From assembly GCA_026125665.1 (NCBI GenBank), contig JAHCKS010000032.1, forward strand, positions 1 through 49,564: 49,564 bases of DNA, written 5' to 3'. This document shows positions 1 to 14,365 of this stretch, one piece after another. The stretch's first letter is position 1, and each line of letters begins with the position of its first letter. The DNA is from Rubrivivax sp. (lineage in GTDB: Bacteria; Pseudomonadota; Gammaproteobacteria; Burkholderiales; Burkholderiaceae_C). The notes below the pieces were generated by a model. That model did no database searches, was not told the origin of the DNA, and worked only from the letters and a program-made list of their open reading frames with translations. The translations under genes were made by a program, and so were the position numbers.

Positions 1-258
1 AACCACGTGCTGCGCCAGCATGCCGCCCATCGAGTGGCCGACCAGCAGCAGCGGCCCGGCGGCCGCATCACCGTCCTCGTCGAGCAGCGCGCGCGCCATC
101 TCCGGCAGCGTGGCGCGACGCGTCGCGACATCGCTGACCCGCGCCGCGTCGACGAGCGGCCGCAGCGCCGCCGGCACGCGGCGGCGCAGGTGTTCGCGCA
201 CCTCGTCGAAGACCTCGCCGTCGTTGGCCAGGCCGGGCAGGAACACCAGTCTCGTCAT
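1..258 (-). CDS. alpha/beta hydrolase, N-terminal part (runs off window)
   Basis: Reading leftward from ATG 258, the frame stays open to the window edge (86 codons) and begins MTRLVFLPGLANDGEVFDEV, a typical first beta strand and oxyanion region of a small alpha/beta hydrolase. Near residue 75 it has GHSMGG, the nucleophile elbow with the catalytic serine. The acid and histidine of the triad lie outside the window. In-frame ATGs also exist at 279 and 291; 258 is preferred because the fold starts directly there. It is divergent from the phosphatase gene that starts at 354. The substrate cannot be told from this fragment. Confidence 0.75.
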   Translation of the reverse strand, partial: MTRLVFLPGLANDGEVFDEVREHLRRRVPAALRPLVDAARVSDVATRRATLPEMARALLDEDGDAAAGPLLLVGHSMGGMLAQHVV

Positions 259-353
259 CGTCCGGGCGCGCAGCGTCATCGGGCCGAGCATAAGGGGGCG
301 GCAGCGCGCGGCCGGCCGCCCCGCTATGCTCGCCGACAGGCCACGAGCCGCGC

Positions 354-1001
354 ATGACCGAGCTGCTCTTCATCCGCCACGGCGAAACCGACTGGAACCG
401 CGAACAGCGCTTCCAGGGGCAGATCGACGTGCCGCTGAACCGCACCGGCCGCGAGCAGGCGGCGCGCGTGGCCGGCCGCCTGGCCGGCGACCTGCACGAT
501 GCGCTCTATTCCAGCGACCTGGTGCGCGCGCGCGAAACGGCGCAGCCGCTGGCCGACGCCTGGCGCGTCGCCGCGGCCTTCTCGAAGGGGCTGCGCGAGC
601 AGCACTTCGGCGTGCTGGAGGGGCTGGACGTGCCGACGATCAAGGCGCGCCACCCGGACCTGTGGGCGCGCTGGCTCGAGCACCGCGGCGATTTCGCGCT
701 GCCCGGCGGCGGCGAGAGCCTGCGGCAGTTCCACGCGCGCGTGCTGGCCGCCGTGCGCGAGCTGGCCGAGGCGCACGCGGGCCGGCGCCTGGCGCTCGTC
801 ACGCACGGTGGTGTGCTCGACATGCTGTGGCGCACCGCGCACGGCCAGCCGATCGAGGGCCTGCGCACCTGCGAGATCCCGAACACCGGGCTCAACCGCC
901 TGCGCTGGAAAGGCGGCACGCTCGTCATCGAGAGCTGGGGCGACGCCGCGCACCTGGCCGACCTGCCGCCGCAGCCGCCCACGCAGGCGGGCGAACGATG
1001 A
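354..1001 (+). CDS. histidine phosphatase family protein (phosphoglycerate mutase-like)
   Basis: A 215-residue single-domain protein of the histidine phosphatase superfamily. The N-terminal FIRHGETDWN carries the catalytic RHG histidine (His9). YSSDLVRARETA is the second phosphate-binding arginine region, FGVLEG supplies the acidic proton donor, and VTHGGVLD carries the second histidine. These are cofactor-independent phosphatases/dPGM-like enzymes; the length fits GpmB/CobC-type phosphatases rather than glycolytic mutase. A TATGCT box at 325-330 is a possible -10. It is the first gene of a rightward cluster with a reductase, kinase and enolase paralogue, so it may dephosphorylate a pathway intermediate (inference). 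Confidence 0.85.
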   Translation: MTELLFIRHGETDWNREQRFQGQIDVPLNRTGREQAARVAGRLAGDLHDALYSSDLVRARETAQPLADAWRVAAAFSKGLREQHFGVLEGLDVPTIKARHPDLWARWLEHRGDFALPGGGESLRQFHARVLAAVRELAEAHAGRRLALVTHGGVLDMLWRTAHGQPIEGLRTCEIPNTGLNRLRWKGGTLVIESWGDAAHLADLPPQPPTQAGER

Positions 1002-1091
1002 GGCCGGCCCCGCAACGCCGCCACGAACGCACGCCACGGCGCCGCGAAGCCCCCCGACGGAAAACGGACGCCGCGTTCGGAGAATGCCGCG

Positions 1092-2105
1092 ATGAGCACG
1101 CCTGATTCCCCTTTCCGCCACACCGTCGTCGTCGGCGCCGGCGCCGTCGGCAACTTCTTCGGCGGCATGCTGGCGCGCGCCGGCCACGCCGTGACGCTGA
1201 TCGGCCGCGCGCCGCACGTGCAGGCAGTGCAGCGCGACGGTTTGCAGATGCAGCTCGGCGCGAGTCTGGGCGGCCGCACGGAGACCGTGCGCCTGCAGGC
1301 GAGCACCGACCTGGCCGCCGTGCGCGAGGCCGAGCTCGTGCTCTTCTGCGTCAAGTCGCCGGACACCGCCGCCGTGGCGCGCGAGATGGCGCCGATGCTG
1401 CGCGAGGGCACGCTCGTGCTCAGCCTGCAGAACGGCGTGGACAACGCCGAGACCATCGCGCGCGAGCTCGGCGCCGCCGGTGCGACCGCCTCGCGAGGCG
1501 TGACGGTGGCGCCGGCCGTCGTCTACGTCGCCACGGCGATGCCGGGCCCCGGTGTCGTGGCGCACTTCGGCCGCGGCGACCTCGTCGTCGGCCCGCTCAC
1601 CGCGACCGACGCCGACGATGCGGCGAAGGCGGCGCGGCTGCAGGCGCTGGCACACTTCTTCGCCGCCGCCGGCGTGCCGGTGCGCCTCTCGCGCGACGTG
1701 CTCGACGAGCTGTGGAGCAAGCTGCTCGTCAACAGCGCCTACAACGCCATCTCGGCGCTCGTGCAGCTGCCGTACGGGCGCATGGTCGAGGTGCCGGAGG
1801 TCCGCGCACTGCAGCGCACGATCGTCGAGGAGGTGGTCGCCGTCGCGGCGGCCGAGGGCCGCAGGCTGCCGCTGGCCGAGTCGATGCAGGCGATGGAGCG
1901 CATCGCCACGGCGATGCCGGCGCAGTTCTCCTCCACCGCGCAGGACCTGGCACGCGGCAAACCGACCGAGATCGATCACCTGAACGGCCACGTCGCACGG
2001 CGCGGCGCCGCGCTCGGTGTGCCGGCGCCGGTGAACCAGGCGCTGCACGCTCTCGTCAAGCTGGCCGAGGCCGCCCGGGCCGGGCACGGCCCGGCGCAGG
2101 CCTGA
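1092..2105 (+). CDS. 2-dehydropantoate 2-reductase family protein (ketopantoate reductase-like)
   Basis: A 337-residue protein with the ApbA/PanE architecture. The N-terminal Rossmann motif VVGAGAVGNFFGG (residues 13-25) binds NADPH. LQNGVDN is the conserved Asn loop near residue 116. Lys210 in ELWSKLLVNSAYN matches the catalytic lysine, and Glu293 in GKPTEIDHLNG matches the substrate-binding glutamate. PanE reduces ketopantoate to pantoate, but the family also reduces other 2-oxo acids. No other pantothenate gene is nearby, and it is followed 25 bases later by a kinase and an enolase paralogue, so a different 2-oxo/2-hydroxy acid substrate is plausible. A GGAG ribosome site lies just before ATG 1092. 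Confidence 0.85.
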   Translation: MSTPDSPFRHTVVVGAGAVGNFFGGMLARAGHAVTLIGRAPHVQAVQRDGLQMQLGASLGGRTETVRLQASTDLAAVREAELVLFCVKSPDTAAVAREMAPMLREGTLVLSLQNGVDNAETIARELGAAGATASRGVTVAPAVVYVATAMPGPGVVAHFGRGDLVVGPLTATDADDAAKAARLQALAHFFAAAGVPVRLSRDVLDELWSKLLVNSAYNAISALVQLPYGRMVEVPEVRALQRTIVEEVVAVAAAEGRRLPLAESMQAMERIATAMPAQFSSTAQDLARGKPTEIDHLNGHVARRGAALGVPAPVNQALHALVKLAEAARAGHGPAQA

Positions 2106-2130
2106 CGCACCCGGCGCATCCGCCCCGCAC

Positions 2131-3177
2131 ATGTCGTCGCCCGCGCCGGTGCCCGCCGAGTTCGTGCAGGCGCTGCGCGATGCGGCGCTGATCGACGCCG
2201 ACGAGGTGCCCGGCGGCGCGGCGCTGGCAGGCGGCGTCTCGTCGGACATCTGGCGCCTGGACACGCGCCGCGGCGCGCTGTGCGCGAAGCGCGCGCTGCC
2301 GAAGCTGCGGGTGGCCGCCGACTGGCGCGCGCCGATCGAGCGCAACCGCTACGAAGCGCGCTGGATGCACGTCGCGAACGCGGCCGTGCCCGGCGCGGCG
2401 CCGCGCGTGCTGGCGCAGCACGAGGCGCTGGGCGTGCTGGTGATGGAGTACCTGCCGCCGGAACGGCACACGCTGTGGAAGGCGCAGCTGGCGCGCGGAC
2501 AGGCCGAAGCGGCCACGGCCCATGCCGTCGGCGCGACGCTCGTGCGCATCCATGCGCACGCGGCGGCCCGCGCAGCCGAGCTGGCGCCGCGCTTCGACAC
2601 CGACCGCATCTTCTTCGACATCCGGCTCGAGCCCTACCTCGTCGCCACGGCGGCGAAACATCCGGACCGCGCTGACGCGCTGCACACGCTCGTCGCGCAG
2701 ACGCAGGCCAACGCGCGCTCGCTGGTGCACGGCGACGTGAGCCCGAAGAACATCCTCGTGCGCACGGACCCGTCGGACGACGGCCCGGCCCAGCCGGTGC
2801 TGCTGGACGCCGAGTGCGCCTGGTGGGGCGACCCGGCGTTCGACCTCGCGTTCTGCCTCAACCACCTGCTGCTCAAGGCGCTGTGGGTGCGCGGCGCGCG
2901 TGCCGCGCTCGGCCGCTGCTTCGACGCGCTCGCCGCGGCGTACCGCGAAGGCATTCACTGGGAGCTTCCGGCGGCGGTCGAAGCACGCGCCGCACGCCTG
3001 CTGCCGGGCCTGCTGCTCGCGCGCGTGGACGGCAAGTCGCCGGTGGAGTACCTCGACCGGCCGGCACAGCACGAGGCCGTGCGTCGCGTGGCGCGCGCGC
3101 TGCTCGCGCGGCCCGTGGCCACGCTGGCCGAGGTGCAGGCCGCGTGGCAGATGGAACTGGAGCGCACCGACGCATGA
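2131..3177 (+). CDS. APH-fold small-molecule kinase (phosphotransferase family)
   Basis: A 348-residue aminoglycoside-phosphotransferase-fold kinase. CAKRALPKLRV (about residues 51-61) carries the ATP-binding lysine. The catalytic loop HGDVSPKNILV has Asp202 and Asn207. LLDAECAWWGDPAFDLAF holds the metal-binding Asp226, the equivalent of DFG. All kinase residues needed for activity are visible, so this looks like a working enzyme that phosphorylates an alcohol of a small metabolite. It shares features with methylthioribose-kinase-like proteins, but no methionine-salvage gene is present. Its stop overlaps the start of the enolase paralogue (ATGA), which points to coupled translation and a shared pathway. 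Confidence 0.85.
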   Translation: MSSPAPVPAEFVQALRDAALIDADEVPGGAALAGGVSSDIWRLDTRRGALCAKRALPKLRVAADWRAPIERNRYEARWMHVANAAVPGAAPRVLAQHEALGVLVMEYLPPERHTLWKAQLARGQAEAATAHAVGATLVRIHAHAAARAAELAPRFDTDRIFFDIRLEPYLVATAAKHPDRADALHTLVAQTQANARSLVHGDVSPKNILVRTDPSDDGPAQPVLLDAECAWWGDPAFDLAFCLNHLLLKALWVRGARAALGRCFDALAAAYREGIHWELPAAVEARAARLLPGLLLARVDGKSPVEYLDRPAQHEAVRRVARALLARPVATLAEVQAAWQMELERTDA

Positions 3178-4592
3178 GTCCGGCTTCTTCCACCCGCATT
3201 TCTCCCACCCGCATCCGCCACATCCACGCCCGCCGCGTTTGGGACAGCCGCGGCCGGCCGACCGTGGAGGCCGAAGTGCGCCTCGAAGGCAGCGCGGGCG
3301 GCGCAAGCCAGCCGACGGTCGGCCGCGCCATCGTGCCCGCGGGCGCCAGCCGCGGCACGCGCGAGGCCCTCGAGCTGCGCGACGGCGGTGCACGCTTCGG
3401 CGGCCAGGACGTGCAGGCGGCGGTCGGCCACGTGCGCGGCGAGATCGCGCGGGCGCTCGCGGGCATGGATGCCGCCGACCAGGCGGCGATCGACGCGCGC
3501 CTCGTCGCGCTCGACGGCACCCCGAACAAGCAGCGGCTCGGCGCCAACGCGACGCTCGCCGTGTCGATGGCGGCCGCGCACGCGGCGGCCGCGGCCGCCG
3601 GGCTGCCGCTCTTCGAGCACCTGGCGCGCAGCACGTCCTCCGTGCCGGAGCGTCTGATCCCGCTGCCGCAGATCCAGATCTTCGGCGGCGGCGCACACGC
3701 CGAGCGCCGCGTCGACATCCAGGACTTCATGGTGATGTGTCCCGGTGCCGGCTCGTTCGCCGAGGCGCTGGAGTGGACGGCCGAGGTCTATCGCGCCGCC
3801 GGCGCGGCGTTGCGCGAACGCGGTGCGCTCGCCGGCGTGGCCGACGAAGGCGGCTGGTGGCCGCAGTTCGGCAGCAACGAGGAAGCGCTCGGCGCGCTCG
3901 TCGCCGCCATCGAGCGTGCCGGCTACGTGCCGGGCACGCAGGTGGCGATCGCGCTCGACGTCGCGGCCAGCGAGCTCGGCCGCGGCGGCCGCTACCGGCT
4001 CGGCCTCGAGCAGCGCGAGCTCGACAGCGACGCGATGGCCGAGCTGCTGCTGCGCTGGTGCGAGCGTTATCCCATCGCCAGCATCGAAGACCCGCTGGCC
4101 GAGGACGACCTGGCCGGCTTCGCGCGCTTCACGCGGGCCGTGGGCCACCGCGTGCAGGTGGTCGGCGACGACCTGCTCGTCAGCGACGCGGCACTGGTGC
4201 GCGAAGCGGCCGCCGCGGGCGCGGCGAACACGGTGCTGCTGAAGCCGAACCAGCGCGGCACCCTGACCGAGACGTGGCAGTGCTGGCAGGCGGCGCGTGC
4301 CCTCGGCCACGCCGGCATCGTCTCGGCGCGCTCGGGCGAGAGCGAAGACACGACGATCGTCGATCTCGCCATCGGCTGGGGCGTCGGCCAGCTGAAGGTC
4401 GGCTCGTTCGCGCGCAGCGAGCGCATGGCGAAGTGGAACGAGGTGCTGCGCATCGAGGAGCGGCTCGGCGCGCTCGCGCGCTTCGCCGGTGCGGCGGTGC
4501 TGGGGCGCAACGCCAAGCCGGCGGCATCGGCCGCAGCGCCAGCATCGGCCGCACCGGCCGCACCGGATTTGCGGCCCGGGCGCGGCGGCTGA
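3174..4592 (+). CDS. enolase paralogue with altered substrate-site residues
   Basis: A 472-residue member of the true enolase family, recognisable along its full length (WDSRGRPTVEAEV at the N-terminus, KVGSFARSERMAKWNE near the C-terminus). Compared with yeast enolase from memory, it keeps the metal ligands (Asp262, Glu305, Asp332), the catalytic acid/base pair (Glu225, Lys357), Lys408, His175 and loop Ser59. It differs at three substrate-site positions: Thr40 is Arg60, Glu168 is Asp184 (in DIQDFM), and His373 is Ala385 (in VSARSGESED). It also has a low-complexity Ala/Pro C-terminal tail of about 25 residues. Glycolytic enolase would not be expected to lose these. The gene overlaps the upstream kinase by ATGA. 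Probably a dehydratase acting on a 2-phospho-hydroxy acid other than 2-phosphoglycerate (inference). Confidence 0.85.
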   Translation: MSPASSTRISPTRIRHIHARRVWDSRGRPTVEAEVRLEGSAGGASQPTVGRAIVPAGASRGTREALELRDGGARFGGQDVQAAVGHVRGEIARALAGMDAADQAAIDARLVALDGTPNKQRLGANATLAVSMAAAHAAAAAAGLPLFEHLARSTSSVPERLIPLPQIQIFGGGAHAERRVDIQDFMVMCPGAGSFAEALEWTAEVYRAAGAALRERGALAGVADEGGWWPQFGSNEEALGALVAAIERAGYVPGTQVAIALDVAASELGRGGRYRLGLEQRELDSDAMAELLLRWCERYPIASIEDPLAEDDLAGFARFTRAVGHRVQVVGDDLLVSDAALVREAAAAGAANTVLLKPNQRGTLTETWQCWQAARALGHAGIVSARSGESEDTTIVDLAIGWGVGQLKVGSFARSERMAKWNEVLRIEERLGALARFAGAAVLGRNAKPAASAAAPASAAPAAPDLRPGRGG

Positions 4593-4637
4593 CCTCGACG
4601 ATCAGGCGTCACCACCTCGCGAGAGAGCCACCCGCGC

Positions 4638-5483
4638 ATGGACAGCCTCTCGCTCACCGCCGCGCTGGCGAGCGCGTTGCTGCATGCCGGCTGGAACGCG
4701 GCAGTGAAGGCGCACCCCGCGCCGCGCGAGGCGATGGCGGCGCAGATGATCGCCGCGGCCGTGCTGGCCATCTTCGGCCTTGCCGCCACCGGGCTGCCTG
4801 CGCCGGCCGCCTGGCCTTGGATCGTCGCGTCGACGGCGCTCAACGTCGGCGCCGTCACGTCGATGCTGCGGGCCTACGAGCACGGCGGCTTCGGCACCGT
4901 CTATCCGGTGATGCGGGCCGTCGGCGTGCTCGGCGTCGCGGTGGTGGCGCCGCTCGCGCTCGGCGAGCGGCTGGGCCTCGGCGCGATGTCCGGCGTGGCG
5001 CTCGTCGTCGTGGCGCTGCTGCTGCTGACGCAGGACGCGCGCGGTGGCGACTTCCCGCCGCGCGCGCTGGCGTGGACGCTGCTGGCCGGTGTGGTCACCA
5101 GCGGCTACGTGCTCGCCGACGCGCAGGGCGCGCGCGCCGGAGGCGGCGGTGGCGCCGGGCCGCTCGCCTACGGCTTCGCCGTCAGCATCACCAACGCCGT
5201 CGCCATCTCGTGGGTCTCGCGCGGCGTCGGTGCACCGTGGGTGCTGCTGGCGCGGCACTGGCGGCTGGCCGCGCCGGCCTCGTTCGCGTCGATGGGCTCG
5301 TACCTGCTGATCCTGTGGGTGTTCACGCGCGCGCCGGTGGCACCGGCAGCGGCGCTGCGCGACACCAGCGCCGTGTTCGCGATGCTGATCGCCGTGCTGT
5401 GGCTGAAGGAGCGGCTCGCGGCGCGGCGCTGGCTGGCGCTGGCGCTGGTCGTCGCCGGCGTGCCGTTGCTGCGGCTGGGGTAG
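4638..5483 (+). CDS. DMT/EamA-type transporter
   Basis: A 281-residue integral membrane protein with about ten hydrophobic segments in two repeats, matching the drug/metabolite transporter superfamily. Residues 1-135 form one EamA half (LHAGWNAAVKAHPAPREAM; RAYEHGGFGTVYPVMRAVGV), and residues about 145-281 form the second (LRDTSAVFAMLIAVLWLKER is the diagnostic last-helix pattern). Such proteins export or import small metabolites in the inner membrane. It follows the enolase paralogue by 45 bases on the same strand, with GAGAG upstream as a ribosome site, so it probably moves a substrate or product of that cluster. The substrate is unknown. Confidence 0.85.
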   Translation: MDSLSLTAALASALLHAGWNAAVKAHPAPREAMAAQMIAAAVLAIFGLAATGLPAPAAWPWIVASTALNVGAVTSMLRAYEHGGFGTVYPVMRAVGVLGVAVVAPLALGERLGLGAMSGVALVVVALLLLTQDARGGDFPPRALAWTLLAGVVTSGYVLADAQGARAGGGGGAGPLAYGFAVSITNAVAISWVSRGVGAPWVLLARHWRLAAPASFASMGSYLLILWVFTRAPVAPAAALRDTSAVFAMLIAVLWLKERLAARRWLALALVVAGVPLLRLG

Positions 5484-5620
5484 GCCGCACGGCCCTCGGG
5501 GGGGCTCAGGCGCTTGCGTGCGCCCTTGGGTGCCCCCACGTGCCACGCGGTGCTACAAGGCGGGCTGCCGATGCCGCCCCCGCGCGCGCCGCCGCCGACC
5601 GAACGCACCGAGGAGTCCGC

Positions 5621-6010
5621 ATGCGCCAGCGCTTCCGCCGCCGCCCCGACCAGGCCGTCACCGCCGTGCGGCTGGCGCTCGACTTCGACGGCTTCGCCTA
5701 CCGCAAGTGGGACCACGAGCAGCGCGCGCGCGCGGGCGACTGGCTGGTCGACAACGGCGGCGACGTCTACACCGTCGCTGCCGACACGTTCGCGCGCACG
5801 TACCGCGAAGTGAGCCCCGGTCGCTGGGTCAAGGCGACGCCGGTGTGGGCCGAGCGCGCCGAGCGCGCCGGCAGCGTCGCCACACGCGAAGGCCGCACGG
5901 CCTACGCCGCCGGAGACTGGCTGGTGTCGAACCAGGCCGACGGCAGCGACGCGTACGCGATCGGCGCAGCGAAGTTCGAGCAGCTTTACGAGCCCGACCC
6001 CGAGGCCTGA
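5621..6010 (+). CDS. small protein with two copies of a GDW(L/I)V...Y domain
   Basis: A 129-residue cytosolic protein starting at ATG 5621, with GAGGAG seven bases upstream deciding the start. Two copies of the same module are visible: AGDWLVDNGGDVYTVAADTF followed by ARTY (residues about 44-67), and AGDWLVSNQADGSDAYAIGA followed by AKFEQLY (about 100-126). The modules resemble the short stand-alone family with the pattern PGD(Y/W)IVTG...YP..PD.FEATY, whose function I do not know. Here the module is duplicated in tandem with a linker containing VKATPVWAE. It has no signal peptide or membrane segment. It follows the transporter by 137 bases and may be separate from that cluster. Confidence 0.7.
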   Translation: MRQRFRRRPDQAVTAVRLALDFDGFAYRKWDHEQRARAGDWLVDNGGDVYTVAADTFARTYREVSPGRWVKATPVWAERAERAGSVATREGRTAYAAGDWLVSNQADGSDAYAIGAAKFEQLYEPDPEA

Positions 6011-6273
6011 AGCATCCCGGGCCCGTGACTGCGCCCGGCGTTGGCGAAGAGCTGTGGGCGGCCCCCGATCGCGGCGCGCCGGGCCGATGCCGTGGGGCCA
6101 CTCAGGGCATGGCACCCGAGGCGCGGCTGCCGACCTTGGAGCGCCACCGGCGGTGCGCCGTGTGTTCGGGTGCCAAGCCCTGGGCGGCGCCCCGCGACCT
6201 CGGACTTGCGCGCCGCCATCGCGCATGAAGGAAGTCTCAGCTTCTTGAGAACGGCCCTCGGGGCTGTGCGACC

Positions 6274-7683
6274 TCAACGGTCCGGCGTCGCCCGCTCACC
6301 CGGTCCGCCGCCGTGCACGATGCGGGCGTGCCGCTGGTAGGTCCAGTAGGCCCAGGCCCAGTTGACCAGCACGATCAGGCGGTTGCGGAAGCCGATCAGG
6401 AAGAACACGTGCGCGGCGAGCCAGAACCACCAGGCGACGAGGCCCGAGAGGCGGAAGCCGCGCAGGTCCACCACCGCGGCCATGCGGCCGATGGTGGCGA
6501 GGTTGCCGTAGTCGCGGTAGCGGAACGGTGCGCCGGTGGCGTCAGTGCCACCGCCGCCATGCGCCAGCCTCGCGCGCAGCACGTGCGCCACGTGCCGCCC
6601 CATCTGCTTGGCCGCCGGCGCGATGCCGGGCACCGGCCGGCCGTCGGGCTGGGACACCGCGGCCAGATCGCCGGCGACGAAGACCTCGGGGTGGCCGGGC
6701 AGGCTGAGGTCGGGCCGGACCTTCACGCGGCCGGCGCGGTCGAGCTCGATGCCGTCGCGACCGGCCTCGCCGGCCTCGCTCGCACCGGCAACATCGGCCG
6801 GGCCACCCGCAGGGCCCGCACGGGCGGCGCTCTCGGCCAGCAGCCGGCCGAGCGGCGACGCGGCCACGCCGGCGGCCCACAGCACCGTGCGGCAGCGATG
6901 CCGTTCATCGCCGAGCCGGTAGCCCTCGCCGTCGATGGCGGCCACCGGAGTGCCGGTCACCACCTCCACGCCCAGGCGCTCGAGCTGCGCGCGCGCCTTC
7001 GCCTGCAGCGCCGGCGGGAAGGTGGCCAGCACGGCCGGTCCGGCTTCGAGCAGGCGCACGCGCGCGCGGCTCGGGTCGATGTGGCGGAACTCGCGCTTCA
7101 ACGTGTGGTGCGCGATCTCGGCCATCGTGCCCGCGAGCTCCACGCCGGTGGGCCCGGCGCCGACGACGGCGAAGTGCAGCCACGCGTCGCGTTCGGCCGC
7201 ATCGCCGGCGGCTGCCGCCGCCTCGGCGCGCTCGAAGGCGGTGAGCACGCGCCGGCGGATCGTCAGCGCATCGTCCAGCGTCTTCAGCCCCGGGGCGTGG
7301 CGCGCCCAGTCGTCGTGGCCGAAGTAGGCGTGCGCGGCACCACTGGCAACGAGCAGGAAGTCGTAGGCCAGCGTCCCGCCGGCGCCGTCGGCGCCCAGCA
7401 CGACGTGCCGTGCCGCGAGGTCGATGCCGGTCACTTCCGCCAGCCGCACGTCGACGTTGACCTGCCCGCGCAGGATGTGGCGCAGCGGCGCGGCGATGTC
7501 CGGCGCCGACAGGCCGGCCGTCGCCACCTGGTAGAGCAGCGGCTGGAACAGGTGGTGGTTCGCACGGTCGACGAGCGTGATCGCCAGCGGCGCGTGCGCC
7601 AGCGCGCGCACGGCCCACAGCCCCGCGAAGCCGCCACCGACGACGACGAGGCGCGCCGGCGAGCCCCGGCTCGGGCCGGCCAT
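6274..7683 (-). CDS. ndh: type II NADH dehydrogenase (NAD(P)/FAD-dependent oxidoreductase)
   Basis: A 469-residue flavoprotein if started at ATG 7683. RLVVVGGGFAGLWAVRAL is the N-terminal FAD Rossmann motif, NHHLFQPLLYQVATAGLS is characteristic of NDH-2, VVGAGPTGVELAGTMAEIA is the NADH-binding motif, and VFVAGDLAAV is the second FAD motif. The C-terminus has hydrophobic/amphipathic helices (FWLAAHVFFLIGFRNRLI) that tether the enzyme to the inner membrane. It passes electrons from NADH to quinone without proton pumping. The start is chosen because TGATG joins the stop of the upstream DacB-like stub to this ATG; an in-frame ATG at 7695 is the alternative. Confidence 0.88.
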   Translation of the reverse strand: MAGPSRGSPARLVVVGGGFAGLWAVRALAHAPLAITLVDRANHHLFQPLLYQVATAGLSAPDIAAPLRHILRGQVNVDVRLAEVTGIDLAARHVVLGADGAGGTLAYDFLLVASGAAHAYFGHDDWARHAPGLKTLDDALTIRRRVLTAFERAEAAAAAGDAAERDAWLHFAVVGAGPTGVELAGTMAEIAHHTLKREFRHIDPSRARVRLLEAGPAVLATFPPALQAKARAQLERLGVEVVTGTPVAAIDGEGYRLGDERHRCRTVLWAAGVAASPLGRLLAESAARAGPAGGPADVAGASEAGEAGRDGIELDRAGRVKVRPDLSLPGHPEVFVAGDLAAVSQPDGRPVPGIAPAAKQMGRHVAHVLRARLAHGGGGTDATGAPFRYRDYGNLATIGRMAAVVDLRGFRLSGLVAWWFWLAAHVFFLIGFRNRLIVLVNWAWAYWTYQRHARIVHGGGPGERATPDR

Positions 7684-7964
7684 CAGGGCGACCATCCCTG
7701 CATCGGCCGGCCCGCCCGGTGGACCCAGCCTGGGCCCCGGTGCTCGAGCGGCAGCGCCACCGCGGCGAGCGATTCGGCTGGCACGTTGGCCGCGGCGAGC
7801 GCCTGCCGCACCGCGAGAGGCAGCCCGCCGGGATGCACGTGCGCTGGGTCACCGGGCTGCGCGCAGGCCGCGAGCAGCACCGCACCCGGCAAGGCGGTGG
7901 AGCGCGCGCCGAGGCGGCGCAGGGTGCGCCGGCACAGCGGCAGGAGACCGGTCGACGCGCTCAC
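7683..7964 (-). pseudogene. truncated DacB-like (PBP4) N-terminal stub, 93 residues
   Basis: From GTG 7964 the frame encodes a lipoprotein-like signal (LPGAVLLAAC) and then LPLAVRQALAAANVPAESLA and HRAGRPMQ, the usual opening of betaproteobacterial D-alanyl-D-alanine carboxypeptidase/endopeptidase DacB. In DacB the next residues are (P)AS-x-x-K, the catalytic Ser-x-x-Lys motif. Here the frame instead reads GWSP and stops at 7683-7685. All catalytic domains are missing, so it cannot be an active enzyme. The stop overlaps the ndh start (TGATG), so the stub is probably translated and couples to ndh. The DacB assignment rests on a short stretch and is tentative; a small lipoprotein is the alternative. 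Confidence 0.55.
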
Positions 7965-8160
7965 GCGCACGATTGTGGCGCGAGCGCCGGGCCGGGCTGC
8001 GCAGCGCCAGGCGAGCGGCCCGCCCAGGGTGGGCCCGCCCAGGCGACACGCCGGCACCACCCGCAGCGTTGTGCGGCGTGAACAGGCGTGCCTTCCGGCC
8101 CGCCGGCGACATGCCCTTTACGCGTGCGAAGCAACCGCCGCGCCACAATCGCCCCCCAAC

Positions 8161-9174
8161 ATGAAGGCCACGCGGCACGACAGGGAAGCCGGCGCACTGG
8201 CGGCGCTGGGCATCGACGCCGGCGGCACGGGCACGCGCTACCTGCTGCTCGCCGCCGACGGCGAGGTGCTGGCCGACGGTCTGGGGGCACCGCTGTCGGG
8301 CACCCAGCTCTTCGACGACGACGGGCGGGCCGCCGTCAACGTCGTGCTGGGCGGCATCGCGCGGGCGCTGCCGATGCTGCCGCACAGCGTCGTCGCCGGC
8401 ATCACCGGCTACGACCACGCGCTGGCGCCGCACCTGCTGCCGCGCCTCCTGCAGACCTTCGGCGTCGAGGCCGGCCACGCCAAGGCGATGAGCGACATCG
8501 AGCTGCTGTGCCGCGCCGCGTTCCCGCCGGGCGACGGCATCGTGCTGTACGCCGGCACGGGCTCGATCGCCGCGCTGCTGGACGCGATGGGCTACCTGCA
8601 CCGCGCCGGCGGCCGCGGCACGGTGATCGACGATGCCGGCGGCGGCCACTGGATCGCGCGCGAGGCGCTCAAGCGCGTCTGGCGCGCCGAGGACGAGGAG
8701 CCGGGCGCCTGGCAGCGCAGCCCGCTGGCGCAGGCGCTGTTCGAGCAGCTCGGCGGCAGCGACTGGGCGCACACCAAGCAGTGGGTGTACGGCGGGCCGG
8801 GGCTCGGCCCGGCCAGTTCCGGCATCTCGCGCGGCCGCCTCGGCGAGCTGGCCACGGTCGTCGCCGCCGTCGCGGGCAAGGACGCAGCGGCGATGGCGCT
8901 GCTCGAGCAGGCCGGGCGCGAGCTGGCGCGCCTGCCCGGGGCGCTGATGCGGCGCTACGGCCGCCACCCGGTGGCGCTGGCCGGGCGCGTGTTCCAGCTG
9001 CATCCGGCCGTCGAGCGCGGCCTCGTGGCGGCGCTGCCCCCGGGCACCGAGCTCGAGCACGCCGACGATGCGCCGCACCGCGCCGCCGCGCGCCTGGCGC
9101 TGCGGCTGCTGGCGCCCGGCGCACCGCCTTCCCCCGCAACACCGGCCGCCGCCCTGGCCGGGGGCACGGTTTGA
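8161..9174 (+). CDS. BadF/BcrA-type amino-sugar kinase (GlcNAc or MurNAc kinase-like)
   Basis: A 337-residue ASKHA-fold kinase of the BadF/BadG/BcrA/BcrD ATPase family. GIDAGGTGTRYLLL (residues 17-30) is the phosphate-1 ATP motif, VLYAGTGSIAALL is the phosphate-2/connect region, and DDAGGGHWIAREAL is typical of N-acetylglucosamine kinases. It heads a tight rightward operon with amidase, DUF3052, DigH-like glycosidase and MurQ. MurQ acts on MurNAc-6-phosphate, and clostridial MurK, a kinase of this same family, phosphorylates both MurNAc and GlcNAc. This enzyme may therefore supply MurQ with substrate (inference). Its stop overlaps the next start as TTGA. Confidence 0.8.
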   Translation: MKATRHDREAGALAALGIDAGGTGTRYLLLAADGEVLADGLGAPLSGTQLFDDDGRAAVNVVLGGIARALPMLPHSVVAGITGYDHALAPHLLPRLLQTFGVEAGHAKAMSDIELLCRAAFPPGDGIVLYAGTGSIAALLDAMGYLHRAGGRGTVIDDAGGGHWIAREALKRVWRAEDEEPGAWQRSPLAQALFEQLGGSDWAHTKQWVYGGPGLGPASSGISRGRLGELATVVAAVAGKDAAAMALLEQAGRELARLPGALMRRYGRHPVALAGRVFQLHPAVERGLVAALPPGTELEHADDAPHRAAARLALRLLAPGAPPSPATPAAALAGGTV

Positions 9175-10133
9175 CGGCCGTTGGCCGCCGGCGCGCGCTG
9201 GTGCGCGCGGCGTTCGGCACGGCCGTCGGCGCCCCGCTCGGCGGCGCGCTGACCGGCCTGCTGGTGCTGGCCGGCTGCACCGTCACCACCACGCCGGGCG
9301 GCGTGCCGATCGACACGCGGCACTCGAGCCGCGGTCAGGACAGCCGCGTGCTCTTCCTCGTCATCCACTACACGGTGGCCGACCTGCCGCTCGCGATCAA
9401 GGTGCTCACCGAGCGCGAGGTGTCGGCGCACTACCTGCTCAGCGACGAGGCGCCGCCGCGCATCTATCGCCTCGTGCCCGAGGAGCGGCGCGCATGGCAC
9501 TCGGGGCTGAGCGCGTGGAAGGGGCACCGGCTGCTCAATGCCAGCTCGATCGGCATCGAGATCGTGCACCCGGGCTTTCGCCTCGATGCCGACGGCGAGC
9601 GCATCCACCTGCCGTTTCCGCAGGCGCAGATCGAAGCGCTGGTGCCGCTCGTGCGCGACATCGTCGCGCGGCACGGCATCCGGCCCGAACGCATCCTCGG
9701 CCATGGCGAGGTGAGCCCGCAGCACAAGCAGGACCCGGGGCCGACGTTCCCGTGGCGGCTCTTCTCCGAGCTCGGCATCACGCCGCCGTGGCCCGACGCG
9801 GCGCGCGTGGCCGCGCAGCGGCAGCGGTTCGACGCGCTGCCCACCGGCGTGCCCGACATCCCCTGGTTCCAGGAGCAACTGGCGCAGCACGGTTACGCGG
9901 TCGAGAGGACCGGCCGCTTCGACGCGCAGATGCGCAACGTGATGATCAACTTCCAGATGCGCTACCGGCCCGAGCGCCACGATGGCGCGCCCGACGCGGA
10001 GAGCGCGGCGATCCTGTGGGTGCTGAACAACCCGGCCGCGGCGTCACCCGGACGGCAGCCGCTGGCGCTGCCGCCGGCCTTTCCGGCGGCAACGGGCGGG
10101 CCGGCAGCGGCGACGTCGGCGGCGCAGCCATGA
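9171..10133 (+). CDS. amiD: AmiD-like N-acetylmuramoyl-L-alanine amidase lipoprotein
   Basis: A 320-residue protein starting at TTG 9171, which overlaps the upstream stop; GTG 9201 is an alternative. The lipobox LVLAGC predicts lipid anchoring. The Amidase_2 domain follows: VIHYT with zinc ligand His66, SAHYLL, SIGIEIVHPG, and GHGEVSPQHKQDPG with His178 and Asp188, spaced ten apart as in AmpD. A C-terminal peptidoglycan-binding-like region (IPWFQEQLAQHGY ... NVMINFQMRYRP, residues about 230-285) completes the AmiD layout. It cleaves the MurNAc-L-Ala bond, probably at the outer membrane. Neighbouring kinase, glycosidase and etherase place it in cell-wall turnover. Confidence 0.85.
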   Translation: MTAVGRRRALVRAAFGTAVGAPLGGALTGLLVLAGCTVTTTPGGVPIDTRHSSRGQDSRVLFLVIHYTVADLPLAIKVLTEREVSAHYLLSDEAPPRIYRLVPEERRAWHSGLSAWKGHRLLNASSIGIEIVHPGFRLDADGERIHLPFPQAQIEALVPLVRDIVARHGIRPERILGHGEVSPQHKQDPGPTFPWRLFSELGITPPWPDAARVAAQRQRFDALPTGVPDIPWFQEQLAQHGYAVERTGRFDAQMRNVMINFQMRYRPERHDGAPDAESAAILWVLNNPAAASPGRQPLALPPAFPAATGGPAAATSAAQP

Positions 10134-10603
10134 GCACCCGCGCGAAGGGCGCGGCGCCCGCGGTGGCTGCCGCCGGCTATTCCGGCACGCCGCTGGCGAA
10201 AAAGCTCGGCATCGCCGCCGGCGACACCGTGGCGCTCGTCGACGCGCCCGCCGAATGGCCGGCATGGACCGCACCGCTGCCGCCGGGCGTGGCGTTCGCA
10301 GCGCGACCGGCGCGCGGCGTGCGGCTGGTGCACGCGTTCTTCGTGCAGCGCGCGGCGCTCGCGCGTTCGCTCGCCGCGTGGAGGCGCACGCTCGACGACG
10401 ACGCGGTGCTGTGGATCTCGTGGCCGAAGAAGGCGGCGAAGGTGGACACCGACATCGACGAGGAAACGATCCGCGCCGAAGCGCTGCCGCTCGGTTTGGT
10501 CGACGTGAAGGTGTGCGCCGTGAGCGAGGTCTGGTCGGGGCTGAAGCTCGTCGTGCGCAAGGAGCTGCGCGCGAAGGCGGTGGCTGCGAAGGGGCGTGGT
10601 TGA
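10130..10603 (+). CDS. DUF3052 family protein
   Basis: A 157-residue cytosolic protein with no signal peptide, whose ATG 10130 overlaps the amidase stop. It begins with GYSGTPLAKKLGI (about residues 16-28) and ends with the diagnostic LWISWPKKAAKVDTDIDEET and LGLVDVKVCAVSEVWSGLKL, as in the DUF3052 family. I do not know a biochemical function for this family. The conserved WPKK motif and tail suggest a fold that binds a small ligand or protein (speculative). Its place inside a peptidoglycan-salvage operon, with overlap on one side and only 8 bases on the other, is the main clue here. Confidence 0.8.
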   Translation: MSTRAKGAAPAVAAAGYSGTPLAKKLGIAAGDTVALVDAPAEWPAWTAPLPPGVAFAARPARGVRLVHAFFVQRAALARSLAAWRRTLDDDAVLWISWPKKAAKVDTDIDEETIRAEALPLGLVDVKVCAVSEVWSGLKLVVRKELRAKAVAAKGRG

Positions 10604-10611
10604 GGTTGCGG

Positions 10612-12234
10612 ATGGGGCCGCCGTCGGAGGTGCACGTGCTGGCGCGTCTGGGCCAGGCGGCGCGGCGGTTCGCGGCCCTTGTCCTGGCCGCTGCCGGGTC
10701 GATCGCGCTCGCCACCATCGGCGCGCCGCGTGCTGTGGCGGAAGATGGCACGAAAGGCGTGCCCGCGGCCACGCTGCTCGCCGCTGGGGAGCTGCCGCCT
10801 CCCGAGCCGCGCCAGTTCCGCGCCGCCTGGGTGGCCACGGTGGCCAACATCGACTGGCCGAGCCGGCCGGGCCTGCCCACGGCGCAGCAGCAGGCCGAGG
10901 CGCTGGCCATCCTCGACCGAGCCGCCGCCATCGGCCTGAACGCCATCGTGCTGCAGGTGCGGCCGGCCGGCGACGCGCTGTACGCGTCGCGCCTGGAGCC
11001 GTGGAGCGAGTACCTCACCGGCGCGCAGGGGCAGCGGCCGCAGCCGTGGTGGGACCCGCTCGCCTTCTGGGTGCGCGAGGCGCACCGCCGCGGCCTGCAG
11101 CTGCACGCGTGGTTCAACCCGTTCCGCGCCCGCCACCCCTCGGCCAAGACGCCGCTCGTGCGGCCGCACCTGGCGCTGCGCGCGCCGGGCTCGGTGAAGG
11201 CCTACGGCGAGCTGCTGTGGATGGACCCGGGTGACGCCGTCGCGCGCGCGCACACGCTGGCGGTCATCGAGGACGTGCTGCGCCGCTACGACATCGACGG
11301 CGTGCACATCGACGACTACTTCTACCCCTACCCCGTGGCCCAGCCCGACGGTGGCGACCTGCTGTTCCCGGACCTCGCGAGCTACCTGACGTACCTGCGC
11401 GGCGGCGGCAAGCTCGCGCTGGCGGACTGGCGGCGCGCCCACGTCGACTCGCTCGTGCAGGCGCTGTTCGAACGGGTGCGGCGGGTGAAGCCGCAGGTGC
11501 TGGTGGGCATCAGCCCGTTCGGGCTCGGCCGGCCCGACCGGCGGCCACCCGGCGTGGCGCCGGGCGGCTTCAGCCAGTACGACAGGCTCTACGCCGACGT
11601 CGAGCGCTGGCTCGAGATGGGCTGGCTCGACTACCTGGCGCCGCAGCTGTACTGGCCGATCGCCAACGAGGGGCGCCCCTTCGCGCCGCTGTTGCGCTAC
11701 TGGGCCCAGGCCAACGTGCGCGGCCGGCACCTGTGGCCGGGGCTGTTCACGAGCTCGGTGCGCGCGCCGGCGGGTGCGGCCGGCGACACGCAGGGCCTCG
11801 GCCCGACGCGCGCGTGGCCGGCGCGCGAGGTGCTGGCGCAGCTGGAGCTGCTCGAGCGGCCGGGCTCCGGCGCCGGCGGCCACATCCACTTCAGCATGGC
11901 CGCGCTGATGCAGGACCGCGACGGCCTGGCCACGCAGCTGCAGCGCGGGGCCTACGCCACGCCAGCGCTGGTGCCGGTGACACCGTGGCTCGACGCCGAG
12001 CCGCCGGGGCCGCCGCGCCTGGAGCGGCGCGGCGAGGCGGTGCTCGTCGAGCGTGCGCCCGGCGAGCCCGCGGCGCGCTACGCCGTGTGGCGGCGCGTCG
12101 ACGGGCGCTGGCGCTTCGCCGCGGTGCCTGCCGGCGAGCGGCGCCTGGCGCGCGAAGGCGCCGACGTGATCGTCGTCGCTGCGGTGGACCGGCGCGGCAA
12201 CGCCAGCGAGCGGCAGGCCGTGCGCTGGCCATGA
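10612..12234 (+). CDS. GHL10/DigH-like peptidoglycan glycosidase
   Basis: A 540-residue exported protein. A hydrophobic signal (FAALVLAAAGSIALATIG, about residues 22-39) is followed by the glycosyl-hydrolase-like 10 domain, which opens with PRQFRAAWVATVANIDWPSR. Family hallmarks follow: GLNAIVLQVRPAGDALYAS, RRGLQLHAWFNPFRA, DIDGVHIDDYFYPYP with the acidic catalytic centre, ISPFGLGRP, and WLDYLAPQLYWPI. The E. coli relative DigH cleaves glycan strands that amidases have stripped of peptides, which fits the AmiD-like gene just upstream. The C-terminus (about 455-540) looks like a fibronectin-type module. TTG 10606 is an alternative start. The stop overlaps an in-frame ATG of murQ. Confidence 0.82.
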   Translation: MGPPSEVHVLARLGQAARRFAALVLAAAGSIALATIGAPRAVAEDGTKGVPAATLLAAGELPPPEPRQFRAAWVATVANIDWPSRPGLPTAQQQAEALAILDRAAAIGLNAIVLQVRPAGDALYASRLEPWSEYLTGAQGQRPQPWWDPLAFWVREAHRRGLQLHAWFNPFRARHPSAKTPLVRPHLALRAPGSVKAYGELLWMDPGDAVARAHTLAVIEDVLRRYDIDGVHIDDYFYPYPVAQPDGGDLLFPDLASYLTYLRGGGKLALADWRRAHVDSLVQALFERVRRVKPQVLVGISPFGLGRPDRRPPGVAPGGFSQYDRLYADVERWLEMGWLDYLAPQLYWPIANEGRPFAPLLRYWAQANVRGRHLWPGLFTSSVRAPAGAAGDTQGLGPTRAWPAREVLAQLELLERPGSGAGGHIHFSMAALMQDRDGLATQLQRGAYATPALVPVTPWLDAEPPGPPRLERRGEAVLVERAPGEPAARYAVWRRVDGRWRFAAVPAGERRLAREGADVIVVAAVDRRGNASERQAVRWP

Positions 12235-12287
12235 GGCCCGTGGCGCCGCTTGATCGGCGCGGCCGCGGCGAAGTAGAAACCGCTCCG

Positions 12288-13202
12288 ATGCGAGAGCCTT
12301 TCTCCGTGCCACCTTCGCTGCCGCCACGGACCGAGCAGCCGAGCGACGACCACCCCGCGCTGGACACCTACACCAGCGCCGCGCTCGTGCGCGCCTTCGT
12401 CGAGGACCAGGCACGCGCCGCGCCGGCGGTGCAGGCGGCTTCGGGCGCGCTGGCTGCGGCGGTGGAGGCGGCGGTGCCGCGCCTGCTCGCCGGCGGCCGC
12501 CTCGTCTATTGTGGTGCCGGCACCAGCGGGCGGCTGGGCGTGCTCGACAGCGTCGAGCTCTGGCCAACCTTCTCGTGGCCGCGCGAGCGCGCGCGGGCGC
12601 TGCTGGCAGGCGGCGAGCGCGCCATGTTCGTTGCCGTCGAAGGCGCCGAGGACGACGCGGCGCAGGGCGCGGCCGACATGCAGGGCTTGCAGGCGGGCCC
12701 GCACGACGTCGCGCTGCTCGTCGCGGCCTCGGGCAGCACGCCCTACGTGCTCGGTGCGGCGCGGGCAGCGCGCGAACGCGGTGCGCTCACCATCGCCTTC
12801 ACCAACAACGCCGGCGCGCCGCTGGCCGCGGCGTGCGAGATCGCCATCGTGCTGGACACCGGGCCCGAGGTCGTCTCCGGCAGCACGCGGCTGAAGGCCG
12901 GCACGGCGCAGAAGATCGCGCTCAATGCCTTCTCCAGCAGCGTCATGGTGCGGCTGGGCAAGGTATACGGCAACCTGATGGTGGACCTGCGCGCCACCAA
13001 CACGAAGCTCGAGCGCCGTGCGCTGGCGCTCGCGATGCGCGCCAGCGGCGCCGGCGAGGCCGACGCGCGCGCCGCGCTGGCCGCCGGCGGCGGCAGCGTG
13101 AAGACGGCGATCGTCATGCTGCGTGCCAGCGTCGACGCCGCCGAGGCGACGCGGCGGCTGGACGCGGCGCAGGGCAGTGTGCGGGTTGCGCTTGGCGGGT
13201 GA
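12288..13202 (+). CDS. murQ: N-acetylmuramic acid 6-phosphate etherase
   Basis: A 304-residue SIS-domain protein that aligns with MurQ throughout. YCGAGTSGRLGVLDSVE contains the catalytic glutamate (Glu90), VAVEGAEDD contains the second glutamate (Glu118), VAASGSTPYVLG and VVSGSTRLKAGTAQKIALN form the sugar-phosphate site, and KVYGNLMVDL is a family signature. It splits D-lactate from MurNAc-6-phosphate to give GlcNAc-6-phosphate in the cytosol. ATG 12288 gives the usual family length (about 300); ATG 12231, which overlaps the upstream stop, would add 19 residues unlike MurQ. It is last in the salvage operon and is followed by a half palindromic repeat. Confidence 0.9.
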   Translation: MREPFSVPPSLPPRTEQPSDDHPALDTYTSAALVRAFVEDQARAAPAVQAASGALAAAVEAAVPRLLAGGRLVYCGAGTSGRLGVLDSVELWPTFSWPRERARALLAGGERAMFVAVEGAEDDAAQGAADMQGLQAGPHDVALLVAASGSTPYVLGAARAARERGALTIAFTNNAGAPLAAACEIAIVLDTGPEVVSGSTRLKAGTAQKIALNAFSSSVMVRLGKVYGNLMVDLRATNTKLERRALALAMRASGAGEADARAALAAGGGSVKTAIVMLRASVDAAEATRRLDAAQGSVRVALGG

Positions 13203-13249
13203 GGGTGAGATCTGAACTGGAACTGAATCCGTCCTCGCGGGTGGTGGCG

Positions 13250-13302
13250 GGATCGGGCCGGTGGAGCGCCCTGCGCCGTGAATGTCCGCTTCCGCCGGCC
13301 CA
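13250..13302 (+). repeat. half copy (copy C) of the palindromic element
   Basis: A 33-base arm at 13250-13282 matches the arm of the element at 26430-26546 with four differences. A shortened core (TGTCCGCTTCCGCCGGCCCA) follows and runs into the stop of the convergent cytochrome gene. The right arm is absent. The outside flank GGTGGTGGCGGGATCGGG is also shared with the 26 kb copy. The element lies between the convergent ends of murQ and the cytochrome gene. Confidence 0.75.
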
Positions 13303-13304
13303 CT

Positions 13305-14168
13305 TCAGCGCTTCGCCACCGTCGCCAGCGCGTCGTTCGAGAACAGGTAGTTGGCCTTGTCCAGCGGCTTGTGGCAGCCCAGGCAGTCGGCCTGGTTGGC
13401 GGCGGTGCGCCGCTTCATGTCCGGGCCGAAGACGGCGTAGTTCCAGTCGCCGTTGCGCAGCATCTCCGGGAAACCGGCGCCCCAGCCGCTGCCGCTGGCC
13501 ATCACGGCGTAGGCGACGAAGCGGTCGGGCTGGTAGAAGCCGTCGGCGCCGACCACCGGCTTGCCGTCGGCGCCGAGCTTGGCCGCCCATTGCTCGAGCA
13601 GCAGCACCGAGCCGGCCGGCAGCGGCCGCCCCTCGCGCGCCGCCTGCAGCGCCACCGGGTTGGCGTAGAGGTAGCGCACCTGGTTGATGTCGGCGCGGTT
13701 GACCGTCTGGTACATGCGGAAGGTCGAGCGGTAGCCCTCGGGGAAGGTGACCTCGGTCTTCGCCAGCTGCGGCAGCGGCTCGGACTTCTGCGCCACGTTC
13801 GCCGGCGCGAGGCCGCCGAAGAACGCGGCGACATCGCTGATGTCGGCCGGCGACAGCTGCGCGGCCAGCGCGTTCATCGACGCGGCCTTGCGCGTGCCGG
13901 CCTTGAAGGCGCGCAGCTGCGCTTCGAGGTAGGCGACACGCTGCCCGGCGAGGTTGGGGATGTTGTCGGCGATGCTCACGCCGTTGGCACCGTGGCAGGC
14001 GGCACACACCGCCTGCGCGCGCGCCTGGCCGGCTTCGACGTTGGCCGCGGCGCCCTGCGCCAGCGCGACGCCGTGGCCCGCCAGCGTGGCCAGGGCGGCC
14101 CAGGTCACCGCGAGCGCGGTCGAGGTCACGGACAGTCCGGCACGGGCCGGCAGGACATGCAACTTCAT
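13305..14168 (-). CDS. cytochrome c / cytochrome P460 domain protein
   Basis: A 287-residue periplasmic protein. A Sec signal ends near GVALAQ (about residue 37). The first class-I cytochrome c domain has CAACH (residues about 55-59) and a distal Met candidate. From TFPEGYRSTF onward (about 143-287) the protein matches the cytochrome P460 family, with a second haem motif CLGCH near the C-terminus. The cytochrome P460 family includes enzymes that oxidise hydroxylamine through a lysine-linked haem; whether this one does cannot be told by eye. GAGGAG lies just upstream of the ATG at 14168. A GTACGT palindrome sits 62-77 bases upstream. It could also be a simple electron carrier. Confidence 0.8.
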   Translation of the reverse strand: MKLHVLPARAGLSVTSTALAVTWAALATLAGHGVALAQGAAANVEAGQARAQAVCAACHGANGVSIADNIPNLAGQRVAYLEAQLRAFKAGTRKAASMNALAAQLSPADISDVAAFFGGLAPANVAQKSEPLPQLAKTEVTFPEGYRSTFRMYQTVNRADINQVRYLYANPVALQAAREGRPLPAGSVLLLEQWAAKLGADGKPVVGADGFYQPDRFVAYAVMASGSGWGAGFPEMLRNGDWNYAVFGPDMKRRTAANQADCLGCHKPLDKANYLFSNDALATVAKR

Positions 14169-14229
14169 CGTCGGAGGCTCCTCGTCGTTGCGCCCGCTCG
14201 GTGGCTCCCGGCCGGGCAGGGTGTGCGGT

Positions 14230-14245
14230 GTACGTACGAACGTAC
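14230..14245. promoter_or_regulatory. inverted repeat GTACGT-ACGA-ACGTAC, putative operator
   Basis: Perfect 6-base arms with a 4-base spacer lie between the flavoprotein stop and the cytochrome c/P460 start, at -62 to -77 of the cytochrome gene. Short GTAC-centred palindromes of this kind are common operators of TetR-family repressors. No such regulator gene is in the window. Confidence 0.35.
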
Positions 14246-14365
14246 GCATCCGAGCCGCGGCGGATGCAAACCCGAGCAGGACGGTCGGCCTCATGGCATG
14301 CGGGGCGCCGGATGCGCCCGGCCGCCAGCCCGAGGAACGAAGACGAGGGCGCGGCCCGCTCAGGG

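Follow-up and report, generated by a model that had tools for sequence, protein, structure and literature searches.

Few enzymes of central metabolism are as conserved as enolase, and genes of its family are automatically annotated as glycolytic. One segment of the serine cycle proceeds through hydroxypyruvate reductase, glycerate 2-kinase, enolase and phosphoenolpyruvate (PEP) carboxylase. In the non-phosphorylating L-fucose and L-rhamnose pathways, the closing steps are carried out by FAH hydrolases and 4-dehydrogenases (PMC11199699). Here, we describe a 49,564-nucleotide stretch of Rubrivivax sp. DNA (the window; contig C194, G+C content 74%) in which the gene for an APH-family small-molecule kinase (KIN) is followed by that of an enolase paralogue with an altered active site (ENO). 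Comparison across loci supports KIN-ENO as a unit that is conserved, inherited together and separate from glycolysis; the two enzymes very probably act consecutively. We give about even weight to the view that KIN phosphorylates a sugar-type 2,3-dihydroxy acid and thereby primes it for dehydration by ENO. The two genes are positioned as follows:

2131-3177, + strand: KIN, APH-family small-molecule kinase (PF01636, 62.9 bits; cut-off 23.2)
3174-4592, + strand: ENO, enolase paralogue with D184 and A385, here termed the D/A signature (Enolase_C 285 bits, Enolase_N 160 bits)

Bases 3174-3177 read ATGA, so that the KIN stop and the ENO start share four nucleotides, an overlap already read in a preliminary description of this DNA. 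A profile of 11 kinases was used to search a genome collection, where at least 578 of the 591 matched stretches encode relatives, and 80 loci were kept. In 74 of the 80, the gene immediately 3' of KIN is ENO, an adjacency beyond that expected by chance. Of the remaining six, L050, L062 and L113 end with the contig, L086 and L100 have ENO farther away, and L094 is without ENO. The 80 loci were combined with 11 of 16 earlier stretches that had a KIN match and with 49 loci from genome samples, giving 140 in addition to the window. The simple gene caller, which sometimes trims gene starts, including that of the window ENO, identified KIN in 133 of the 141 stretches and missed it in eight. Over the 133 loci, 122 ENO genes occur within four genes of KIN, all of them on the KIN strand, and tblastn gave an ENO match somewhere in 132 of the 140. 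The loci are not independent and the counts include duplicates; L034/L049, L035/L060 and L036/L085, for example, each represent one contig twice, and the identical kinases of L089 and L142 were both counted.

Co-inheritance was examined in two samples, one of 398 genomes from the window's phylum and one of 385 from the class to which genome G103 belongs; related genomes within them do not count as independent draws. The threshold for ENO presence was set at E 1e-178 after canonical enolases scored about 548-575 bits. In the phylum sample, KIN and ENO were each found in 9 of 398 genomes, the identical nine, representing eight genera. In the class sample, KIN was found in 39 of 385 genomes and ENO in 34, all of which are inside the 39. 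Among the five KIN genomes below the ENO threshold, G901 (L143, cut by a contig end) and G952 (L168) have ENO beside KIN. KIN and ENO are unlinked in G709 and G907, yet a D/A-type ENO is located elsewhere in each genome. In addition, 28 plasmid records match KIN at E 1e-25, and all 20 of those examined contain an ENO-like gene. The D/A signature is present in 18 of the 20, with the exceptions of L221, which is a fragment, and L210, which has Asp, Lys and Gly at the E168, Glu211 and H373 places. The plasmid carriers include Rhodococcus, Rhizobium, Azospirillum, Cupriavidus, Methylobacterium and Paracoccus and, beyond these, Persicobacter (Bacteroidota) and the archaeon Halomarina; actinobacteria, a Bacteroidota member and Halomarina are all represented among the D/A loci. 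No KIN match was obtained in a phage collection at E 1e-10, and carriage of KIN by phages was rejected on this basis.

The enolase equivalent of E168 is reported to contact the substrate (PMC4450660). In all 121 KIN-linked enolases examined this residue is Asp and H373 is Ala (Asp184 and Ala385 in the window ENO), whereas E/H is found at these positions in 26 of the 27 enolase rows outside this set, and S36 is replaced by Ala in 116 of the 121. The catalytic Lys, Glu211, the three metal ligands, the loop Ser39 and the phosphate-binding Arg374 and Ser375 (Arg386 and Ser387 in window numbering) are kept in the window and in 121 of 121. The window's own genome contains a separate canonical enolase on contig C217 that scores 445 bits against PF00113, versus 286 for ENO, and carries the E/H signature (row L001). 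ENO was thus rejected as the sole or glycolytic enolase of this genome, a possibility that the preliminary description had named as fatal to its proposal. The gene is nevertheless annotated as eno, phosphopyruvate hydratase, with the term glycolytic process in 8 of 10 plasmid records checked for naming. A further enolase-like paralogue with 36% identity to ENO and Arg/Ala at the E168/H373 places was seen in L046 (G046:C42), with no KIN match within that 20-kb stretch.

The HGD(x4)N and DAE motifs of KIN (H200-G201-D202, N207, D226, E228) are invariant across 11 homologues. The AlphaFold model of KIN has a pLDDT of 90, and its best Foldseek matches are 5-methylthioribose (MTR) kinases, with TM scores (query) of 0.71-0.80. 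The only solved relatives returned by sequence search were two MTR-kinase-type entries and corramycin phosphotransferase. Against the MTR kinase model TIGR01767, KIN scores 51.6 bits, far under the cut-off of 275, and methionine salvage was rejected for that reason. The best two named KIN relatives, among the matches listed, come from metagenome-assembled genomes labelled Rubrivivax. Given the APH family name and a nearby EamA gene, KIN could be read as an aminoglycoside-type resistance kinase that acts with a drug exporter and lies beside an ordinary enolase. This reading, already disfavoured, is hardly credible in light of the MTR kinase fold being nearest, the entry of aminoglycoside kinases into the Foldseek list only at rank 29 and lower, and the co-inheritance of KIN with ENO. 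Drug resistance or phage defence was likewise rejected as the main role, the sole PADLOC match being a weak one (PD-T4-6, 17 bits).

KIN and ENO belong to a row of five consecutive window genes on one strand, with intergenic gaps of at most 90 bases. The other three are:

354-1001, + strand: histidine phosphatase, branch 1 (PF00300 His_Phos_1, 209 bits)
1092-2105, + strand: PanE/ApbA-family 2-oxoacid reductase (ApbA 114 bits, ApbA_C 116 bits)
4638-5483, + strand: EamA/DMT transporter (PF00892 EamA, 50 bits)

The preliminary description had named these five families on a single strand, which agrees with the open frames at 354-5483, all on the + strand, and with their Pfam matches. It had further arranged them as a pathway of 2-oxoacid reduction, phosphorylation, dehydration, dephosphorylation and transport. 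The window PanE scores 249.7 bits with TIGR00745, above the cut-off of 141.35, while the equivalog models listed score under their cut-offs; it is one of six PF02558 (PanE-family) stretches of at least 69 bits in its own genome. Near KIN in the 133 loci, a D-2-hydroxyacid dehydrogenase (DHDH) gene is found in 50, PanE in 28, and both in none; L107 has DHDH together with a PanE-family gene three genes away, as detected by profile. When gene clusters other than KIN and ENO were counted, DHDH occurred near KIN in 50 loci (two genes far from it) and PanE in 28 (one far), and the next family in only 7. A FastTree phylogeny of the 133 kinases placed all 28 PanE loci within one fully supported group of 34 rows, the others being five with neither enzyme and one that is cut. 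There is no near DHDH in this group, although L072 and L073, two of its members without PanE, have DHDH some genes off, and DHDH is spread across the remainder of the tree. DHDH was also found by profile in 11 of 20 plasmid loci, including a weak match of 95 bits in L210; its single-linkage subfamilies are crude. These distributions support a 2-hydroxy/2-oxo acid enzyme as the commonest partner of KIN-ENO, with PanE swapped for the non-homologous DHDH, and mark PanE as the lineage-specific partner of the window's clade. This interchange of unrelated enzymes with one reaction type beside KIN-ENO gives the strongest support to the first step of the preliminary description, 2-oxoacid reduction. 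A PhyH-family dioxygenase gene was observed directly before KIN in L039 (7340-8203), and in L219 (6166-7074), where neither PanE nor DHDH was seen, a single gene separates the two. PhyH might make a 2-hydroxy acid by hydroxylation.

The two outer genes fared differently. Profile search placed a histidine phosphatase gene close to KIN in 5 of the 133 loci, namely the window and its close relatives (L034, L049, L050 and L063), and tblastn detected one more in L033. In 5 of the 133, a DMT gene directly follows ENO (the window, L033, L038, L144 and L151, of which L144 and L151 are sister rows). While the neighborhood comparison upheld the kinase-enolase adjacency, no locus other than the window and L033 showed the complete set of five, and the five genes were rejected as one conserved operon. 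The histidine phosphatase is probably a neighbor and not a core part, and the EamA/DMT transporter is, judged by its distribution, an occasional partner and a local addition; neither was upheld as a pathway step. It is very improbable that the full five-step pathway operates, in which the phosphatase would strip the phosphate and EamA would export the product, even with the close spacing of the five genes, the identical five in L033 and the DMT genes that follow ENO elsewhere. The earlier interpretation as a whole is partly supported.

It is hypothesized that KIN uses ATP to phosphorylate a sugar-acid-type 2,3-dihydroxy acid at its C2 hydroxyl. In ENO, with a pocket remodelled around the substrate C3, Lys357 would take the C2 proton and Glu225 would expel the C3 hydroxyl, yielding a substituted phosphoenolpyruvate, which amounts to a 2-keto-3-deoxy acid in phosphorylated form. 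The 2-oxoacid reductase (PanE here, DHDH in many carriers) would supply or remove the 2-hydroxy acid, and in some other carriers genes resembling 2-keto-3-deoxy-acid hydrolases, aldolases or hydratases may provide what comes next. The order from reductase to kinase to enolase in the preliminary description fits; we infer the substrate class, phosphorylation at C2, the direction of the reductase and the fate of the phosphate.

Sugar-acid genes recur beside the unit, with model scores that mostly fall under curated cut-offs. The FAH neighbors are most like 2,4-didehydro-3-deoxy-L-rhamnonate hydrolase (334 and 352 bits; cut-off 500), and SDR and FAH genes accompany the unit in L136, L137, L208, L209 and L218. 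FAH was found by profile in 9 of 20 plasmid loci, and in L215 there is only a truncated gene 8 kb off. In the Sinorhizobium locus L218, the order is SDR, UxuA-like dehydratase, SMP-30 lactonase, KIN, ENO, FAH and SDR, with an ABC transporter noted by eye, and some plasmid loci contain LacI, KIN, ENO, FAH and SDR with sugar-annotated transporters. The Halomarina pair is flanked by genes annotated as galactonate dehydratase, C-terminal binding protein (a DHDH) and RraA. KIN, ENO and DHDH occur with D-threonate-kinase-like and PdxA-family genes in L066, L081, L092 and L108; in L066, these score 104 bits (cut-off 450) and 342 bits (cut-off 290), respectively. L138 combines KIN, ENO and DHDH with an HpaI/GarL-like aldolase (269 bits; cut-off 369) and a 2-keto-4-pentenoate hydratase-like gene (267 bits; cut-off 350). 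Comparison across loci brings out conserved pairing, co-inheritance, a fixed active-site signature, interchangeable reductases and recurrent sugar-acid neighbors. A block of genes named by eye as M81-type metallopeptidase-like, SelA-like and D-serine-deaminase-like was also seen beside KIN-ENO-DHDH in L082, L087, L088 and L092.

The main rival to sugar-acid dehydration is a module that converts glycerate to PEP, in which the dehydrogenase would make glycerate from hydroxypyruvate, KIN would act as a glycerate 2-kinase of a new kind and PEP would be made by ENO as a dedicated enolase isozyme; PEP carboxylase may use the PEP, and the FAH, SDR and aldolase neighbors would belong to upstream pathways that release glycerate. 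An L-glycerate route is a variant of this. PEP carboxylase (ppc) genes would be expected as neighbors if PEP were the product of the unit, and they are found near DHDH-KIN in L131, L132, L204, L205 and L214, the latter three being Rhizobiaceae plasmids. The L204 enzyme scores 1114 bits with NF000584 (cut-off 815) and keeps W248, L504 and M538 of the E. coli enzyme, which line its PEP pocket. In addition, DHDH resembles glyoxylate/hydroxypyruvate reductases among others, with scores below the cut-offs, Methylobacterium nodulans has KIN-ENO, and the GarL-like aldolase, reductase and kinase of L138 resemble the E. coli garLRK genes. Opposed to this are the two enolase-site residues changed in 121 of 121, which would be unexpected for unchanged chemistry, the presence in the same genome of both the canonical enolase and a DUF4147 gene (contig C190), which belongs to a glycerate-kinase family, and the frequency of ppc, found in just 2 of 140 loci and by blastp in 3 of 20 plasmid loci. 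The KIN family also differs from that of known glycerate kinases. We consider conversion of glycerate to PEP unlikely as the role of the unit, and on balance lean slightly towards a substrate other than D-glycerate or 2-phosphoglycerate. In the Rhizobium ppc records, the block that follows contains genes for an extradiol-type dioxygenase, an alcohol dehydrogenase, an NAD(P)H-dependent oxidoreductase and ENO.

Several observations weigh against sugar-acid dehydration by a dedicated KIN-ENO unit, beginning with the ppc neighbors above. ENO passes the TIGR01060 phosphopyruvate hydratase cut-off (470.8 versus 300 bits), which also favors PEP as the product. In G644, G928 and G946, KIN is present and only canonical-type enolases were found, with no D/A enolase, and ENO is 3.8-6.8 kb away from KIN in 6 of 20 plasmid loci. 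Neither PanE nor DHDH is near KIN in 55 of 133 loci, 8 of which are cut by a contig end. The enrichment of 2-keto-3-deoxy-acid neighbors is biased because these were first chosen by eye near KIN, and inspection by eye near the window pair revealed no aldolase, FAH, SDR or sugar-acid dehydratase gene.

We also considered that KIN-ENO might produce a specialized phosphoenol, or a phosphonate-type precursor, for incorporation into a secondary metabolite. On the plasmid of Enterobacter chuandaensis (L210), diverged kinase and enolase-like genes lie near aminotransferase, oxidoreductase and transporter genes, and a PEP-mutase-family gene is near the pair in Azospirillum L219. Many loci instead have transporters, regulators and catabolic genes, and no biosynthetic cluster was seen by eye in the window, so that this explanation is very improbable. 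The L210 region (5262-14884; NZ_CP097174.1), where the enolase-like gene is divergent to the kinase, has the look of a biosynthetic cluster.

Family searches in the window covered 11 genes up to 14.2 kb, leaving out the genes at 1-291, 5621-6010 and 10130-10603 and the remainder. By-eye inspection of the gene calls of the 49.6-kb window revealed no further glycolytic, pantothenate or methionine-salvage gene, in agreement with the preliminary description. The EamA gene scores 122 bits with TIGR03340 (cut-off 288). The genes at 8161-13202 encode a BadF-type kinase, an N-acetylmuramoyl-alanine amidase, a GHL10 hydrolase and a SIS-domain protein similar to MurNAc-6-phosphate etherase; they have the look of a cell-wall recycling cluster and are partly syntenic in L033 and L049. 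The gene at 1-291 (- strand) is truncated by the contig end, and by eye its start is like that of alpha/beta-hydrolase-like genes (cluster c20), which sit three to four genes from KIN in L034, L049, L050, L133 and L141. At 13305-14168 (- strand), a cytochrome P460 domain and a cytochrome c domain are fused in one gene.

Both enzyme families are already known. Searches for the KIN-ENO pair or its possible chemistry, judged by title and start of abstract and made in open-licence literature with most subscription papers outside it, gave no paper that deals with the pair. We tentatively propose, with somewhat less than even confidence, a new catabolic unit of Pseudomonadota, Actinomycetota, Bacteroidota and a haloarchaeon, in which phosphorylation of the 2-hydroxyl is followed by dehydration of sugar-type acids in the widened pocket of an enolase. 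If true, this would be a further route to 2-keto-3-deoxy acids beside the known sugar-acid dehydratases, with the phosphate retained as a high-energy phosphoenol and energy stored in the substituted phosphoenolpyruvate. An enolase subfamily with an altered site and a co-inherited kinase would show that enolase chemistry has been reused, and would correct many annotations.

Compared with canonical enolase (TIGR01060, PF00113), ENO has in common the fold, the base Lys, the general-acid Glu, the metal ligands and the phosphate-binding Arg and Ser, but differs in E168D, H373A and mostly S36A, in the canonical copy elsewhere in the genome and in its kinase partner. KIN shares the kinase fold and catalytic motifs with 5-methylthioribose kinase (MtnK) and the APH superfamily; unlike MtnK, it scores far below the MtnK cut-off, has no methionine-salvage neighbor in view and is co-inherited with ENO. 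The serine cycle segment has the same series of reaction types as the KIN-ENO unit, and five loci have ppc close to KIN-ENO, but its enolase lacks the active-site changes of ENO. In the L-fucose and L-rhamnose pathways (FucC-FucF-FucG, LRA5-LRA6), dehydration is analogous and the SDR and FAH steps recall the genes after the unit in several relatives, but there the dehydratase acts without phosphate, where KIN-ENO would instead use a kinase and a true enolase.

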